Source: Simmondsia chinensis (lineage: Eukaryota > Streptophyta > Magnoliopsida > Caryophyllales > Simmondsiaceae). Taken from it: a DNA stretch of 64,000 nt. Position numbers and translations under genes: made by a program. The stretch's first letter is position 1. Each line of letters opens with the position of its first letter. The notes below the pieces were generated by a model. The model ran no database searches. It saw only the letters and a list, made by a program, of their open reading frames with translations, and was not told the origin of the DNA. The DNA lies in contig JAGTTD010000001.1 in the NCBI GenBank assembly GCA_018398585.1, positions 39,199,938-39,263,937 on the forward strand, given 5' to 3'. This document shows, piece by piece, positions 6,951 to 31,231 of the stretch.

Positions 6951-7538
6951 GCAACCCGGATCGGTTCCCTCCAATTGTTGAATGTTGCCTCAAGGATCGA
7001 GCCCGTCAAGACCTCGTCCAAGGGGTTGATGTATGCGGCCATACGGGTGAATGGCCAGGAGGCACGAGCCCTTGTGGACACAGGTGCCACTCATAATTTT
7101 TTCTCCGAAGATGAAGCACGGAGACTAGCCCTTCGTGTTGTCAAAGATGGAGGATGGTTGAAGACCGTCAATGCTAGTGCTAAGCCCGGACTTGGCACAG
7201 CCCGAGATGTCGATACACAGGTTGGAGATTGGAGGGGGAAGATCGACCTCTCTGTTGTGCCCATGGATGACTTCAAACTTGCCTTGGGCATGGAGTTCTT
7301 GGACAAGGTACGCGCAATGCCTCTACCTTGCCTTGACGCTCTATGCATCATGACGGGGGATAAGGCATGCATGGTGCCGTTGAAACGAGAACCTCAGAAT
7401 GTAGGCAAAACGCTCTCAGCCATGCAGTTTGCAAAGGGGTTGCGGAAGAAGCATCCCACCTATCTTGCGGCTCTCAAGGTGGATGAGGGCCCGGTATCGG
7501 TAGCGCCAGTACCACAGGAGATTCGAGATGTCCTTTAA
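6921..7538 (+). pseudogene. chromovirus aspartic protease region
   Basis: An open stretch of about 205 codons directly after the zinc knuckle. The catalytic motif ALVDTGATHNFF lies near 7068-7103, the usual Asp-Thr-Gly of retroelement proteases, which cut the polyprotein as a dimer. The segment continues toward the RT with QEIRDVL before a stop at 7536. It is the best preserved part of the element but is in a different frame from both gag and the RT that follows. Confidence 0.85.
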
Positions 7539-8740
7539 GAATTTGAGGACATGATGCCACCCGAGCTTCGGAAGAAGCTCCCACCTTGTCATGAGGTGGA
7601 TCATCAGATTGAGCTAGAGCCGGGGACAAGGTCGCCAGCCATGGCCCCCATACCGGATGTCTCCTAAAGAGTTGGAGGAACTAAGGAGACAATTGAAGCA
7701 TTTGCTTGACTCAGGATTCATTCGTCCGTCCAAGGCCCCATTCGGTGTTCTGGTATTGTTTCAAAAGAAACATGATGGGTTCTTACGGCTATGTATCAAT
7801 TATAGGGCACTTAACAAGATCACGGTGAAAAATAAGTACCCTATCCCACTGATGCTGATCTCTTTGATCGCCTTGGTGAAGCGCAGTACTTTATCAAACT
7901 TGATCTTCGGTCGGGCTATTATCAGGTCCGGATTGCTAAAGGAGATGAGCCAAAGACGACTTGTGTGACCCGCTATGGCTCGTTCGAGTTCCTGGTGAGG
8001 CCTTTTGGCCTCACAAATGCTCCAGCCACTTTTTGTACGCTCATGAACAATATCTTTCATCCATTCCTCGATAAGTTCATGGTGGTCTATCTTAACGATA
8101 TTGTGGTCTATAGTTCCACTTTGGAGGACCATGTGCTGCATTTGAAGATGGTATTCTGAGTCCTCCGAGATAACGAACTATATGTGAAGAAGGAGAAGTG
8201 TTCATTTGCGCAACAAGAGGTGACATTCTTGGGTCACAAGATCCGAGATGGCAAATTAAGCATGAAGCAGGAGAAGGTCGGGGCTATCCAAGAGTGGGAG
8301 CTTCCCTCAAGTGTGACTTAGCTAAGGTCATTCTTGGGGTTGGCAAACTACTACAGACGCTTCATCAAGGGTTATTCTAGCATAGCCGCCTCCTTGACTG
8401 ACATGTTGAAGAAAGGTAGACCTTGGAAATGGGACGAGTCCTGTCAGGAGGCATTCGATCAATTAAAGAAAGCTGTGACGGAGGAGCCTGTCTTGAAGCT
8501 TCCGGATTATGGCAAACCCTTTGAAGTGCATACAGATGCCTCCGACTTTGCCATTGGTGGGGTGTTGACACAGGAGGAACACCCCATTGCTTATGAAAGT
8601 TGCAAGTTAAACAATACCGAGAAGCGGTACATGACTCAAGAGAAGGAGATGACCGCTGTGGTTCATTGCCTACGCAAGCTCGATGGCAAGGCTTCCTTGC
8701 GGAGTTGGACTTTGAGATGGAATACAAGCCCGGGAGAGTG
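7539..8740 (+). pseudogene. chromovirus reverse transcriptase and start of RNase H
   Basis: The RT core is spread over at least two frames: 7657-7860 ([20 protein letters not shown], then [20 protein letters not shown]) and 7965-8580 (RPFGLTNAPATF, the active-site box, [15 protein letters not shown]). The active-site box reads YLND at 8088-8099 instead of YLDD, so one catalytic aspartate is replaced by asparagine. Stops occur at 8157 and near 8318. The tether and RNase H start ([14 protein letters not shown]) follow at about 8525. Near 8672 the frame jumps and roughly 90 bases of RNase H seem to be missing compared with relatives. Confidence 0.85.
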
Positions 8741-15120: not shown

Positions 15121-15380
15121 TACAACAACAATAATAACAACAGACCTAGTGCCTCAAGAACTCCCGTTTAAGCGAGGTCTAGGGGGTGGATGTACGCAGC
15201 CTTACCCCTTCAGGGTGTAACCCTACCGAGAAGTTGTTTTCGATGCTCCCCAGCCTTATGGGGTTGGCAACATGAAGACTTCTCCCGAGGTCATCCATCA
15301 TGCTACTACTCTTGCCCAAGCACGCTCAACTTTGAAGTTCTAATGCAATCCGGTGCATTAGTGCCTGATAAATGAACACT
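15121..15380 (-). mobile_element. composite SINE: 5S rRNA-like head with RTE-LINE-type 3' tail
   Basis: Read on the minus strand, a 5S rRNA-like head (15378-15262) runs into a short linker. After it comes a tail that matches the 3' end of the RTE LINE at 25261-25400: an identical 19-mer at 15192-15210 and 25335-25353, then a CCCC-AGACC block, a GAGGCACTAGGTCTG-type block and a TTG/TTA-rich end at 15121-15140. RNA polymerase III head plus LINE-derived tail is the definition of a SINE. Target duplications are not recognisable, so the copy is old or the ends are imprecise. A lone 5S pseudogene next to a LINE end is the alternative. Confidence 0.72.
15262..15378 (-). pseudogene. 5S rRNA-like sequence with intact-looking internal promoter
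   Basis: About 117 nt aligned end to end with plant 5S rRNA, the first 15-20 nt being the most diverged. The three internal control elements of RNA polymerase III type 1 promoters are visible: A box AGTTGAGCGTGC (15320-15331), intermediate element AAGAGTAGTA (15304-15313) and C box GATGGATGACCTCGGG (15284-15299). Differences scattered along the body argue against a functional rRNA gene. There is no 5S tandem array here. Confidence 0.82.
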
Positions 15381-25005: not shown

Positions 25006-25260
25006 TATCGCAACCCTAGAGTTGGTGATAGGAAAATAGAGGTTTACAGTTTAGATCAGAGAGAGAAAAGAGATAGAATTTGGGATGAGAAAGAAAGAGA
25101 AATTAGATGAGATGAGAGTAGAGAGAATATTGAGATGAGAAGTTTAAGACTTCATTAAAATTGTATTGGATGATTCAATTACAATGTAACACTCACTATT
25201 TATCCTACATACATCAAGTGCAATGGAAAGTCCATTAAAAATATCTAAGTAATCTGAAAA
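25006..25260 (-). repeat. 5' LTR, left piece (cut by RTE LINE)
   Basis: Matches 22130-22390 of the other LTR, with TATCGCAACC at its start, and stops at AATCTGAAAA where the LINE tail begins. The LTR resumes at about 31976 with CAGTTACAAGAAAATATCC. Confidence 0.85.
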
Positions 25261-25609
25261 CAACAACAACAACAGTCCCAGTGCCTTGCGGCTCCCGCAT
25301 AACGCGGGGTCTGGGCCGGGGGGGGGGGGTTGATGTACGCAGCCTTACCCCTTCCGGCAGGAAATGAGACTGTTTCCGGGGACCCCCAACCTGGAGTGGT
25401 TGAGTTCCTGCAGATAAACCATCAATTCATCAATTGTGCACAAGGGGAAAGAAAAAAAAAAGGAGGAAGGGAAGGAGAAGAAGAGGAAGAAGAAGAAGGA
25501 GGAGAAGAAGAAGAGGAAGAAGATCGATGTCTAAACTAGCCTAAGAGTATTACACTACAGGTTATGCTCGCCTACGAAACTTAGACCACCTGCCACTCCC
25601 CGCCCTACT
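25261..25609 (-). other. RTE LINE 3' region and tail
   Basis: The terminal 90 nt hold the GTAAGGCTGCGTAC block, a G/C run, and a hairpin-prone CCCGCGTTATGCGGG stem, then the TTG repeat (25261-25275). LINE 3' ends of this kind are recognised by their own RT, which is why SINEs borrow them. A strongly purine-biased tract (GAA/GGA repeats on the plus strand) lies at 25444-25525. Confidence 0.8.
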
Positions 25610-26061
25610 CTATTCTGTTATCTCCGCTACTCTAATACTAGCCCTCCATCGTGTCCTATCTAAGGCCATCTTCTCTCTTAGGTTTAGGTGGGTTAGGTCT
25701 TGACGAATCGTCTCCAGCCAGCTCTTCTTTGGTCTGCCCCTCCCTCTTTTGCTTATCGTTGTGTTGAGCTGTTCACACCGCTTGACTGGGGCTAAAGTCG
25801 ATCTTCTGCTGACATGTCCAAACCATCTTAGGCGTTGCTCCCTCAGTTTGTCCTCTATCAAGGCTACACTCAGCTTGCCTCGAATCACATCATTCCTAAT
25901 CCTATCCTTTCTTGTGTGGCCACACTTCCAGCGTAACATCCTCATCTCTGCCACCTTCATCTGCTGTGTTTGATTTTGTTTCATTGGTCGACACTCTGCC
26001 CCATATAGCATAGCCGATCTTACTACCGTCTTATAGTACTTTCCCTTTAACTTTAGAGGGA
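25610..26061 (-). pseudogene. RTE LINE ORF2 C-terminal domain
   Basis: [20 protein letters not shown] starts the thumb-side region, with [38 protein letters not shown] and ending in [10 protein letters not shown]. These are the standard C-terminal blocks of plant RTE ORF2. It continues the RT interrupted at 28739; the 5-bp duplication AAAGT marks both sides of the interruption. Confidence 0.9.
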
Positions 26062-26066
26062 ACTTT

Positions 26067-26558
26067 TGTTATGCTCGAGCTTGAACCACGAACGTAAACT
26101 AATATAAAATGTAGATAGATTAAGAATATGAGATGAGGAAGAATTGAAATTGAGATGAGAAAGTAGAGTTTAGAGTTCGATGAGAGAAAGAAGGGAAAGG
26201 GGATGAGAAAATAGAGTTAGATCTCAAATTGAGATAGTTTTCAGATTTTTCATTGAATGATTTGATGATTACAACTCAACACTTATTTATAGCAACTAAG
26301 TAAGTAAATGCATTGTATCCAGAACAATCTAGAATATAAAATCCTAACTAATACTCAATTTATTTAGAATTGGCGCCGAAAAGAGGAAAATAATAGTAGC
26401 CTTGTAGCAACGCAGCAACAGCCAGCACAGAACAGGTATACCAGCAGCAGCAGAACACCAGCAACAGAATTAACAGATTTTAACAGCTTTTACCACCAAA
26501 TAGTTTTCCCGCCCATTTCATCAATTTAAATTCTAGCCTCGGATTTCGATTTGTAACA
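26067..26558 (-). repeat. 3' LTR of non-autonomous element
   Basis: On the minus strand it starts TGTTACAAATCG and ends GAGCATAACA. The TTATTTATAG box at 26284-26293 (minus-strand CTATAAATAA) is the likely TATA element. Its layout loosely resembles the LTR of the chromovirus at 22130. Confidence 0.92.
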
Positions 26559-27711
26559 TTCCCTTCCCCTTGAAAACATTCTTGTCCTCAAGAATGGAAG
26601 AGAACGAGACTTGGAAATCACTTATTGATGTAGAGGTAGAGATTGAAGTTGATGCGATGACTTCAAGCTGGAATTGCAACTGACTGAATTTCTGAGATTG
26701 CGGTAAACTTGCAGCTGAGGAGAACTTGTTACTGCAGTATATCTTGATGAACAATTCACAAATATTCTCCCAATAGCATAGCTTCATGATAGGGTCCATA
26801 TTAATCAAATCTCTTTTCCAGAAAAGAAATAAATCATGCCGAACTTGCCGATCGGCATGCCGACACTGCATATTTGTTACTGGATTCTGATTTCTGGCTA
26901 AAACAATGTGCTCTGCAGCAATGACAAAGCTTGCAACATTGTTTTTATCAAACATTTGGATGTTGTGAGTTTGAGCATTCAAACAAACAGGACGTGGACA
27001 ATCTTTCTGAACAAAATGCATGCTAACAGATAGAATATGCTCTTGATCAGGTGATCGTTCATGTGGACTGTTAGTTCTTTCAACTTCAGGAACATGATTT
27101 TGAGGCCTATCTTCATCTAATTGAAGATGAACTTGAGGACTCACATTTTCATTAGCAACTTGAGATCCTTCTTCAACCAACGTCTCCTCACGCTTCATCT
27201 TCTTCTTTGTAATCTTCTTTGCTTCCCAAAAATTGTTCAATGCATCATTGAGTTGGCTTCTTTTAGCTTTACTCCGTGCTTTCTTCAACATTCCTTTGAC
27301 ATGAAAATCGTATTCCCATTCCGGATACGTGTCATATTGTGCCTCAACGTCATCAAGATACTCTAACTCTAGCAAAGGATCTTCATAAGGATCGTCTTGT
27401 TCAAACTCAGGTACTCCTAAATTGTGTTCATCAATTTCGGCCTTGTCATGGTCGAATGCATCAACAACATCAGCCGGTTCTGCCTTCTCTTTTTGCTTGA
27501 CATTGAACTTTGGTTGTCTGACGCTATCCACTAGCTCCGGAAACTCATTTGCATTAAGAATACTAGCACAACCTCGATTGATGCTTGCCAACTGATGAGC
27601 CTTACTTCTCTGCTCAATATTGTCCACTGCCTTATTAAAATCTTGTCTCAATTCTTGCACTAATTTTATTATTTGCTTAGTCAACTCACACATATTGACA
27701 ATGAACAACAA
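26533..27711 (-). CDS. 392-residue protein of the non-autonomous LTR element
   Basis: Uninterrupted frame from 27711 (an ATG a few codons on, MCELTKQ..., may be the true start) to a TAG at 26533. Residues 1-45 look like a short coiled coil. Residues 65-140 are strongly acidic (Asp/Glu/Tyr-rich), 140-175 are Lys-rich (KARSKAKRS, KKITKKKMKRE), and the C-terminal third is mixed with Ser/Thr tracts. No zinc knuckle, DTG or YxDD motif. The last residues (SSILEDKNVFKGKG) resemble the C-terminal end of gypsy polyproteins and the frame runs through the polypurine tract 26 nt into the 3' LTR. It may be a gag-like or accessory protein. Function unknown. Confidence 0.6.
   Translation of the reverse strand: MLFIVNMCELTKQIIKLVQELRQDFNKAVDNIEQRSKAHQLASINRGCASILNANEFPELVDSVRQPKFNVKQKEKAEPADVVDAFDHDKAEIDEHNLGVPEFEQDDPYEDPLLELEYLDDVEAQYDTYPEWEYDFHVKGMLKKARSKAKRSQLNDALNNFWEAKKITKKKMKREETLVEEGSQVANENVSPQVHLQLDEDRPQNHVPEVERTNSPHERSPDQEHILSVSMHFVQKDCPRPVCLNAQTHNIQMFDKNNVASFVIAAEHIVLARNQNPVTNMQCRHADRQVRHDLFLFWKRDLINMDPIMKLCYWENICELFIKIYCSNKFSSAASLPQSQKFSQLQFQLEVIASTSISTSTSISDFQVSFSSILEDKNVFKGKGMLQIEIRG
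26559..26572 (-). promoter_or_regulatory. polypurine tract
   Basis: AAGGGGAAGGGAA on the minus strand, immediately before the 3' LTR; it also lies inside the 392-codon frame. Confidence 0.85.
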
Positions 27712-28232
27712 CTTAAATCACTGCAATTGTCCTCTGAATTTTTTTTTTTTTTTTTCTTTCTTGATCAAGATTTGTGAAACAAAATCTGTTCGGTTGAACG
27801 GAGATTGCAATGTTTCCCTTAAATCTGGCAATGCGTGACTGGCTTCTGATTTGCTTGATCTGAATTTGAACACTGCTGAATTGAATACAACCTTCAATTG
27901 TGATCAACAATTTTCCAAAATGTTCAAGATCAAAATCTGAATCGATCTTGATTGAATCGTCTTATGGCTACTTTGATTTTTATAACAAAAATATGCTTCA
28001 ATCTGATTTTTTTTTAATTCTGCTGCACTTGTTCACTGGATTCTTCAAATTCAGTACTGGATCTCAACTTTCAACCGCAACCGCACTTGATCAACACAGC
28101 TCCAACACAGCTCAGTTCTGGTTTGAATCTTATCTGATTTTCCTGATCAATAACAGCAAAACCTTCTGCACTGAATGGATCTTCTGAATTTTTTTAAAAA
28201 ATTTTGTTGATTGCGCACTCGATCGGATTGAG
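27712..28232 (-). other. leader of the non-autonomous element
   Basis: No frame of note on the element strand. Holds a poly(T) run on the plus strand at 27738-27756 and AT-rich sequence. By position it could hold the packaging signal, which I cannot identify. Confidence 0.5.
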
Positions 28233-28244
28233 GCTCTGATACCA
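28233..28244 (-). promoter_or_regulatory. primer binding site
   Basis: TGGTATCAGAGC on the minus strand, a full 12-nt match to the Met-tRNA-type site, 2 nt from the 5' LTR. Confidence 0.92.
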
Positions 28245-28246
28245 AT

Positions 28247-28738
28247 TGTTACGCTCGAGCTTGAACCACGAACGTAAACTAATATAAAATGCAAATAGAT
28301 TGAGAATATGAGATGAGGAAGAATTGAAATTGAGATGAGAAAGTAGAGTTTAGAGTTAAATGAGAGAAAGAAGGGAAAGGGGATGAGAAAATAGAGTTAG
28401 ATCTCAAATTGAGATAGTTTTCAGATTTTTCATTAAATGATTTGATGATTACAACTCAACACTTATTTATAGCAACTAAGTAAGTAAATGCATTGTATCT
28501 AGAACAATCTAGAATATAAAATCCTAACTAATACTCAATTTATTTAGAATTGGCGCCAAAAAGAGGAAAATAACAGCAACCTTGTAGCAATGCAGCAGCA
28601 GCCAGCACAGAACAGGTATACCAGCAGTAGCAGAACACCAGCAACAGAATTAACAGATTTTAACAGCTTTTACTACCAAATAGTTTTCCTGCCCATTTCA
28701 TCAATTTAAATTCTAGCCTCGTATTTCGGTTTGAAACA
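28247..28738 (-). repeat. 5' LTR of non-autonomous element
   Basis: Same length as the 3' LTR. Starts TGTTTCAAACC and ends GAGCGTAACA on the minus strand. Confidence 0.92.
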
Positions 28739-28743
28739 ACTTT

Positions 28744-30262
28744 CTATCACACAGCACCCCGGATGCATTCACCACTTCTGCCAGCCTACTTTAATCCTGT
28801 TGCTGACATCCTCATGGACTTCACCATTCTGGTGTATCATGGATCCCAGATATTTGAAGTTTTCCTTGCTTGATATGGCTTGTGCTCCAATCTTAACCTC
28901 CTCGGTGCTGTCCGTGGTGGAGCGATCAAATTTGAATTCCACATACTCGGTCTTAGATCTGCTAATCCTTAAACCCCTCAATTCTAATGCACCTCTCCAT
29001 AGCTCCAGCTTCTCATTTATCTCCGCAGGGGACTCTCCTACCAGAACTATGTCGTCTGCAAAGAGCATGCACTAAGGTACCTCTCCTTGGATATGTCTAG
29101 TGAGCTCTTCCATCACTAGAATGAACAGGAAGGGACTCAAGGCAGAACCCTGGTGAACCCCTACGGTGATAGGGAAAGTGTCTGTCCCCCCTTCCCCTTT
29201 CCGCACATTAGTGTGTGCCTCCTCATACATGTCCCTAATGACCCGAATGTAAGGCATCGGGATGCCTCTCCTTCCCAATACCCTCCACAGTACCTCTCTT
29301 GGCACTCTATCATACGCTTTCTCCAAATTGATGAAGACGATGTAGAGGTTCTTTTGTCTCTCCCTGTATTGTTCTATCGTCCGCCGTAAAAGATGAATGG
29401 CTTCTATTGTTGATCTCCCAGCTATGAACCCAAACTTGTTTTCGGTCACTTCTGTCTGTTGCCGTATTCTCTTTTCTATGACTCTCTCCCACAGTTTGAG
29501 GGTGTGACTCATCAATTTGATCCCCCGGTAATTGGTGCAGCTTTGGATATCACCCTTGTTCTTGTAGATTGGGACCAGTGTGCTCATCCGCCATTCTTCC
29601 GGCATCTTGTTCCCTATCAAGATTTGGTTAAAGAGTTGTGCCAGCCAGCTGTAACCCCTCTGTCCAAGGCATTTCCATGCCTCAATAGGTATCCCATCTG
29701 GGCCAACTGCTCTTCCCCTACCCATATGTTTTAGGGCTTCCTTAATCTCCTCTGGGGTGATTTGCTCACAATAGCACTCGTTCTGATCCTCTTTCGTGGT
29801 CTGGAGCCCCCCTAAGTCTATCTCTTCACTTCCTCGGTTGTTGAACAGATCGTGGAAGTAGGCTTTCCACCTAGCTCTAATTTGATGACCTTCCACTAGC
29901 ACCTGCCCATCCTCTCCTTTAATGCATTTTACTTGCCCCAGGTCCCTCGTCTTCTTCTCCCTTACTCTGGCTATCTTGTATATATCCCTGGCTCCATCCT
30001 TGGTGTCTAGCCTCTTGTAAAACTCTTCATATGCTCTTGATTTTGCCTCACTAATTGCTTTCTTCGCTTGTTTCTTGGCTTGCTGATATTCCTGTCTCTT
30101 TTCCTCTTCTCTACTACGCTCCCACTCCTTGAACTGATCTCGTTTCACTTTAATCTTCTGTTGGACTTCTTCTCCCCACCACCATGACTCTCTGTAGGTG
30201 ATTGTCCCACCTTTTGATTCTCCCAAAACTTCACGTGCCAAACTCCTGATTTTCTGTGCCAA
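28744..30262 (-). pseudogene. RTE LINE reverse transcriptase
   Basis: Nearly 400 open codons from 30262 to 29072, then in the same frame to 28769. RT blocks in order: AVGPDGIPIEAWKCL near 29720, STLVPIYKNKGD, CTNYRGIKLMSHTLKLWE, ENKFGFIAGRST, VFINLEKAYDRVP, GVHQGSALSPFLF and the catalytic MLFADDIVLV near 29065-29036. In the palm motif FINLEKAYD the first catalytic Asp position reads Asn (FxDLEKAYD is usual). A TAG at 29072 stands where relatives have Trp before CMLFADD. Near 28770 a small indel shifts the frame before the NASGVLCDRK segment. Confidence 0.92.
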
Positions 30263-31231
30263 CTCATTCTACTTTCGGTTAATATCTCCCTCCTCTCTCC
30301 ATTCAAGCTCTACCTCCGCTCTTTCCTTATAGGCTCTAAGTTTTTCCCCTTTCAGGTCTCTCCAACGGGTACGTCTCTGCATGGGGTTCCTGCTTCTTCT
30401 GACCCACTTCTTGACCTTTACATCCGCGCACACCGCCCGATGTTGTTTGGATAAATTCTCTACTCAAATGGCCTTGCAGTCCCTGCATTGTCTTTGTGCC
30501 CTCTTCCTAAGTAGTATGTAGTCGATCTGGGTCTTCGCCTCTCCGCTTTAACACGTGATGAGATGCTCGTCGCGCTTTTTAAAAAAGGTGTTGGCAATTG
30601 TTAACTCATAGATGACCGTGAAGTCCAGAAGGGATTTCCCCTCTGCATTCCTAGTTCCAAATCCGAAACCCCCATGGTGAGTCGTGTATCCATCCTCTTT
30701 CTTGCCAACATGCCCATTGAAGTCCCCACCAATCACCACTTGTTCCTCTTGTGGTATGATTTGCATCGGTCTGTCTAGGTCCTCCCAAAATGCTGCCTTC
30801 TCGTTCTCTGGTAGTCCAGTCTGTGGTGCATAGGCACTGGTCACGTTCATTATCTCCCCATCCACGATTATCTTGATGCCTATGATCCTATCCCCAATTC
30901 TTGACACTTCGACTACTTTATCCTTAAGGCTGTTGTCGACTAGAATTCCTACACCATTCCTCCCTCTGGTTTTCCCTGAGTACCACAGTTTATGTCCTAG
31001 CATCTCCCTTGCCTTCGAGCCCTCCCATTTAGTCTCCTGTAGGCAAAGGATATTGATCCTTCTTTTCATCATCATTTGGACTACCTCATTGCCCTTCTGT
31101 TTCAATGTCCCGATATTTAGTGACCCTATTCTTAGATTTTCCTCCCTCTTTGGCCTCTCTCTCCCCCTCCCCCTCCCCACCCCCTGTAAAAATGGCCTCA
31201 CGTCTTGAGTTCCATGTCTAGTCACGTTCAT
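30263..31231 (-). pseudogene. RTE LINE endonuclease domain
   Basis: Apurinic/apyrimidinic-type endonuclease, which nicks the target DNA to prime reverse transcription. Visible blocks: RIGSLNIGTLKQKGNEV, NILCLQETKWEG (catalytic Glu), NGVGILVDNSLKD, TSAYAPQTG, VIGGDFNGHVG (catalytic Asp/Asn) and SLLDFTVIYELTIANTFF. The frame is open from 31231 to the TAA near 30550, then continues in frame through a linker with one more stop near 30265 to the RT. The final H of the usual SDH is not obvious. Confidence 0.9.

Follow-up and report, generated by a model that had tools for sequence, protein, structure and literature searches.

In a window of 64,000 nucleotides from the genome of Simmondsia chinensis (by window we mean the whole stretch of DNA that was analysed), a short element on the minus strand joins sequence resembling 5S rRNA to sequence resembling a LINE 3' end, the LINE in question lying elsewhere in the same window. 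The question raised by this locus is whether the two parts met by accident or whether the element belongs to a family of SINEs whose head derives from 5S rRNA and whose tail was taken from a LINE. The copy in the window is about 258 nt long and about 13% diverged from the family consensus described below. Its ends, read by eye, are a start at 15379 (15380 if the preceding A is counted) and the stop of the (TTG)n at 15122, which agrees to within 1 to 2 bases with the limits of 15121 and 15380 proposed by a first-pass annotation of this DNA. The 5S rRNA model (RF00001) matched the copy with 40 bits (gathering score, 38; E-value for 64 kb, 8.4e-05), and no second match at or above the gathering score was found anywhere in the 64-kb window. 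The head, put at 117 nt in the first pass, measured about 113 nt instead, and the exact block shared with the LINE 3' end, reported there as a 19-mer, was indeed present with a corrected length of 23 nt (15189-15211 versus 25332-25354). The further blocks of tail noted as similar to the LINE end turned out to be parts of a homology spanning the entire tail, and across its 142 columns the family sequence and the window LINE end agree at 76% (small search, E = 1.4e-24). Three stretches of the head (Table 1) are presumably the A box, the intermediate element, and the C box; since all three carry changes in the window copy, this copy is probably dead.

Table 1. Positions in the 64-kb window of the parts of the 5S-headed SINE copy and of the LINE sharing its 3' end
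Feature	Position	Strand	Evidence
A-type 5S-headed SINE copy, full length, old	15122..15379	minus	nhmmer against the family model: 271.9 bits, model 3-257
5S rRNA-derived head	15267..15379	minus	RF00001 match spans 15377-15262
A-box-like stretch	15316..15332	minus	by eye; 1 substitution relative to the family consensus
Intermediate-element-like stretch	15301..15311	minus	by eye against the consensus; substitutions present
C-box-like stretch	15284..15299	minus	by eye against the consensus; substitutions present
LINE-derived 3' part, degenerate (TTG)n at its end	15122..15266	minus	family sequence against the window LINE end
Exact 23-mer in common with the LINE 3' end (25332-25354)	15189..15211	minus	sequence match
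3' end of RTE-type LINE, homologue of the SINE tail	25259..25402	minus	nhmmer 82.4 bits, model 114-255
LINE C-terminal open frame	25610..26011	minus	83% over 133 aa to the frame of L041; no Pfam match
LINE reverse transcriptase frame	29072..30262	minus	PF00078, E = 2.8e-24
LINE endonuclease frame	30548..31231	minus	PF03372, E = 7.8e-10

We then searched the S. chinensis genome itself (831 Mb in 35 contigs, 26 of them longer than 17 Mb) and scored the best 40 of 7659 first-look candidates. Among the nine small contigs of this assembly, the initial 2-5 kb of six, one of which reads N, showed nothing suggestive of organelle DNA. For one F-box gene, Caryophyllales supplied the three top protein matches and five of the top ten, at identities of only 33-35%. 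All 40 scored matches consisted of head plus tail, with common ends at both sides. These copies, located on 20 large contigs, diverge by 3 to 13% from a family consensus of 256 nt, in which about 113 nt of plant 5S are followed by about 140 nt of a LINE 3' end and then by (TTG)n; being the best-scoring ones, they make up a sample biased toward young and complete copies. Their 300-nt flanks were unrelated to one another, except at one duplicated locus and for scattered tail fragments. The duplicated locus comprises copies L036 and L037, which share a contig, are separated by about 100 kb, and have identical 300-nt flanks; they are the same insertion, carried along with its flanks by a local segmental duplication, and the number of distinct insertions is therefore 39.

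To these copies we added a near-random sample of 200 kb, consisting of 20 stretches of 10 kb taken at random positions, one per large contig; these were 20 of 60 stretches drawn, on contigs known to hold matches, unweighted by length and with 6 large contigs unsampled. The A-type model (A and B denote two subfamilies, see below) gave 25 matches in this sample, 13 of them headed and 12 consisting of the tail only. The headed copies fell in 8 of the 20 stretches, and an Rfam scan of these eight stretches plus L004 showed that 8 of the 13 reach the RF00001 gathering score. Extrapolated to 831 Mb, the near-random count corresponds to roughly 54,000 copies with a head (95% interval by bootstrap, 21,000 to 91,000), and the estimate falls to about 44,000 when the window, with its 1 copy in 64 kb, is included. 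The seven A-type copies of this sample were 8 to 18% diverged from the consensus.

The head was compared with 5S rRNA in several ways. RF00001 matched all seven other copies that were scanned, with 56 to 72 bits over model positions 1-120. Positions 1-118 of the A consensus agreed with Arabidopsis 5S in 108 of 120 columns and with human 5S in 80 of 124, and for two B-type heads the corresponding figures were 95 of 121 and 95 of 126 (Arabidopsis) and 74 of 124 and 76 of 129 (human), all the reference sequences having been entered by hand. In the internal control region, the A consensus differed at a single position from the Arabidopsis 5S so entered. Judged by these alignments, the head of the family is a plant-like 5S rRNA. 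Stronger conservation of the internal control region was looked for over the 40 copies and not found (0.936, versus 0.941 to 0.945 elsewhere in the head). The base preceding the initial GGG was A in 34 of the 40 copies, so the true 5' end possibly lies one base further out. TTTT is absent from the consensus and, in 39 of the 40 copies, from positions 1-230, and a Pol III transcript could thus reach the end of the element.

The two subfamilies differ at both ends. Subfamily A starts with GGGTTCATTTACCAGGCACTAATGC and ends in (TTG)n; in subfamily B the start is about CCAAAGAGGGTACCAACACGCCGTC and the end is a short run of T. By their 3' ends, 6 of the 13 headed near-random copies belong to B; a seventh B copy was found in L004, and the one in L047, which is truncated, scored better with the A model. 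At the A junction the 5S sequence is left after GTGTTGC, and among the B junctions those of L050 and L047 keep GTGTTGCACCCCTC, the other B-type copies being without the CGTGTTG stretch. Differing junctions allow, without proving it, more than one birth, i.e., that in this lineage the RTE enzymes joined 5S rRNA to their tail on more than one occasion and that A and B are separate products of such events. The 5' leaders, junctions, and 3' ends, which all differ between the subfamilies, speak for this, but the 5S and tail sequence that they share fits equally well a single birth followed by divergence, and the comparison is based on a reading of only seven headed B-type copies. On balance we find two births rather unlikely. 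A separate observation concerns L004, where three tail-sharing elements stand close together (97-204, 1280-1478, and 1501-1757) and where an A-type SINE follows directly on the end of a B-type SINE, apparently within the duplicated target of the latter.

The tail was found to be homologous to the 3' ends of two LINE copies with endonuclease, reverse transcriptase, or C-terminal frames, one being the LINE of the window and the second that of L041, in which the C-terminal frame lies just upstream of the matching tail. The window LINE is a putative member of the RTE clade; several relatives of its reverse transcriptase carry the source name "LINE-1 ORF2," and in a comparison with solved structures human LINE-1 scored slightly above R2. 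The RTE-LINE tail proposed in the first pass finds support in the common 3' end and in the signature at the insertion sites presented below, and a putative RTE origin is supported to that extent, the LINE itself being a probable RTE member by its (TTG)n end and the signature. With the whole 3' part derived from a LINE, the element could also be regarded as an internally deleted derivative of that LINE, the LINE itself then possessing a 5S-derived promoter. This is very unlikely, since what lies toward the 5' end of the window LINE is an endonuclease frame, and a 5S match reaching at least the gathering score was absent both from the window outside the SINE and from L041, the sole other examined stretch with frames of the same LINE. 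Two features of these LINE copies may be mentioned in passing. The LINE of the window is interrupted: direct repeats of about 300 nt that are 97% identical (26066-26365 and 28246-28545) stand 2180 bases apart, and the element at 26066-28545 inside the LINE resembles an LTR element, with a long open frame (26533-27711) that gave no Pfam matches. In L041, at 7499-7881, the TTG end of the RTE-type LINE is immediately followed by a 5'-truncated A-type SINE.

No tRNA-headed companions with the same tail were recognised upstream of the tail-only matches. Just three pairs of these matches have short upstream stretches in common, and one of the pairs consists of the two LINE copies; by eye, several of the upstream stretches are T/C-rich, resembling LINE 3' regions. 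A conserved structure of the tail was not supported: for 39 tails, made up of 20 from the 54 headed matches and all 19 tail-only ones, RNAalifold left only 3 pairs, forming one hairpin, and the full consensus folded no better than its shuffles (z = -0.47). The 3' region of the Au and Angio-SINE elements of plants may resemble the tail of the 5S-headed family. An assignment to these elements was rejected on account of the head, which is 5S; ARAGORN, a tool that would miss degenerate heads, predicted no tRNA gene in any of the 20 near-random loci. As far as excerpts of the relevant papers go, the Au and Angio-SINE superfamily also consists of plant SINEs, but its head is tRNA-derived, in contrast to the 5S head found here (PMC9033089); a 37-bp 3' Angio-domain is common to many angiosperm SINEs (PMC9033089), and the Au SINE ends in (T)2-5 (PMC3747384).

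Target site duplications with a score of at least 9 were present at 33 of the 40 copies, compared with 5 of 192 mismatched control pairings; one control pass had a score of 19, which is what a pairing of the duplicated locus L036/L037 with itself would give. Co-terminal copies of head plus tail, each with a duplication of its own, were what the first-pass annotation had asked for, and with 40 of 40 copies fused and 33 of 40 duplicated its expectation is largely borne out. In the 32 distinct insertions that passed, the duplications were 13 to 20 bp long, with a mean of 17. In the near-random sample, 7 of the 13 headed copies reached a score of at least 9, a count made without a separate control; an eighth copy, scoring 10, was left uncounted because its duplication falls inside the TTG repeat. 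The score of the window copy, 7, was not above the control level.

The insertion sites were also compared with the "Tn-TA" signature of plant RTE LINEs and SINEs, described in the accessible part of one report as a run of T located some 10 nt before the duplication, which itself begins with T and then A (PMC13295347). T occupied position -11 from the duplication start in 21 of the 32 insertions and 89 of the 160 positions between -12 and -8, against a background of 0.33; 18 of the 32 duplications started with T and 10 with TA, which is weaker than the published signature. The combined Tn-TA motif was found at 12 of 32 sites versus 3.4 expected from the same flanks, in a test that covered A-type sites only and whose exact thresholds were chosen after the site profile had been viewed. 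The A-type insertion sites are thus in part enriched for the RTE signature, in a minority of the sites.

These data also bear on Cassandra, the known plant element with 5S sequence according to excerpts of two papers (PMC10853983 and PMC10886601), and on the idea that the family consists of Cassandra-type TRIM elements, or fragments of them, with the 5S sequence carried in an LTR. Cassandra is likewise a plant retroelement that makes use of 5S, but it holds the 5S within its LTRs, whereas the 5S-headed family has a LINE end as its 3' half, duplications that are longer (13 to 20 bp), and sites enriched for the RTE signature. Apart from the duplicated locus and the tail fragments, the 300-nt flanks are unrelated between copies, and neither LTR-like ends nor a short duplication of fixed length was seen in those of the 40 copies, as the first-pass wording "LINE-type tail, not LTR ends" had anticipated. 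Since no LTR ends were seen, the family is not Cassandra, and membership in it is to be regarded as highly improbable. Also highly improbable, and refuted by the copy survey, is a chance junction in which a 5S pseudogene landed beside a LINE end: the window copy by itself has no clear duplication and LINE-like tails are common (12 of the 25 model matches in 200 kb are headless), but the identical fusion and ends recur in 40 of 40 scored matches, to which the near-random sample adds 13 headed copies, so that the single copy named in the first pass as fatal to its proposal is not what the genome holds.

We put at about 0.92 the probability that the window element is a member of a high-copy plant SINE family of the 5S-headed (SINE3) kind. 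Its members have the properties of SINEs: they are short, non-coding, and dispersed, their head comes from a type of RNA that is transcribed by Pol III, and they have common 5' and 3' ends and target duplications of variable length. In 5S genes, the internal control region acts as a type 1 promoter through TFIIIA. RNA polymerase III would transcribe the SINE from this region of the head, the RTE reverse transcriptase would recognise the common 3' end of the SINE RNA, and insertion would proceed by target-primed reverse transcription. The first copy may have arisen when an RTE enzyme, having copied the 3' end of LINE RNA, switched its template to 5S rRNA, which it would have entered near the 3' end and copied on to the 5' end; the position of the junction, near the 3' end of 5S, fits template switching. 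Pol III transcription, dependence on TFIIIA and on the RTE machinery, and an origin by template switching are what we infer for the family from its sequence. More tentatively, the 5S rRNA gene may be a main SINE promoter in this lineage, RTE LINEs having captured 5S rRNA, possibly repeatedly, and given rise to tens of thousands of copies, in convergence with the 5S-BovB SINE of the springhare.

The published record, as available in excerpts of the papers cited here, contains 5S-headed SINEs from vertebrates, insects, and Aspergillus (PMC3747384, PMC8010984, PMC5063351, and PMC10886601). The first-pass statement that such SINEs are known from animals is thus correct for animals and has to be widened to fungi (PMC5063351). 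As in the plant family, a 5S rRNA head is joined to the tail of an RTE-clade LINE, BovB, in the springhare SINE Ped-1 (PMC3747384). Unlike the plant family, Ped-1 is mammalian, and since the head of the plant family is closer to plant 5S (by the references entered by hand), an origin independent of Ped-1 is expected. SINE3 of vertebrates and insects, SINE3-1_AO, and AfuSINE3 of Aspergillus have a 5S head with A box, intermediate element, and C box, as here (PMC8010984 and PMC5063351), but differ from the plant family in their LINE partners and kingdoms; AfuSINE3 is described with five copies and a 5S similarity of 50 to 65% (PMC5063351). The SINEs of legumes share with the 5S-headed family a 3' end held in common with RTE-clade LINEs and the Tn-TA signature (PMC13295347). 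They end in Tn and their RTE LINEs in (GTT)n, and, in contrast to the family described here, their signature is stronger and the excerpt of the report mentions no 5S head (PMC13295347).

In the part of one study available to us, the heads of plant SINEs are described as tRNA-derived (PMC9033089). The excerpt on AnnoSINE, a tool for plants, mentions 5S heads in general terms and has the tool check for them (PMC8825457), and that of a Cassandra paper dealing with promoter capture by nonautonomous elements points to animal SINEs (PMC10853983). A 5S-headed plant SINE was not found in the open-access literature, as covered by titles, starts of abstracts, and passages; most subscription journals, Repbase, and SINEBase lay outside this scope, and a Repbase or SINEBase entry for such a SINE could exist.

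If the proposed reading is true, the solution of using a 5S promoter arose in plants too, and the partner was again of RTE type, as it is in the mammalian case. Two questions then become testable, namely whether RTE enzymes tend to switch template to 5S RNA and whether annotations of plant genomes have overlooked such families or classed them as rRNA. Speculatively, 5S-like control regions scattered in their tens of thousands could titrate TFIIIA, and they could also confuse counts of 5S rDNA and the mapping of small RNAs. The two small contigs L077 and L078 open, by eye, on a repeat of about 80 bases that looks tandem and is richer in GC.
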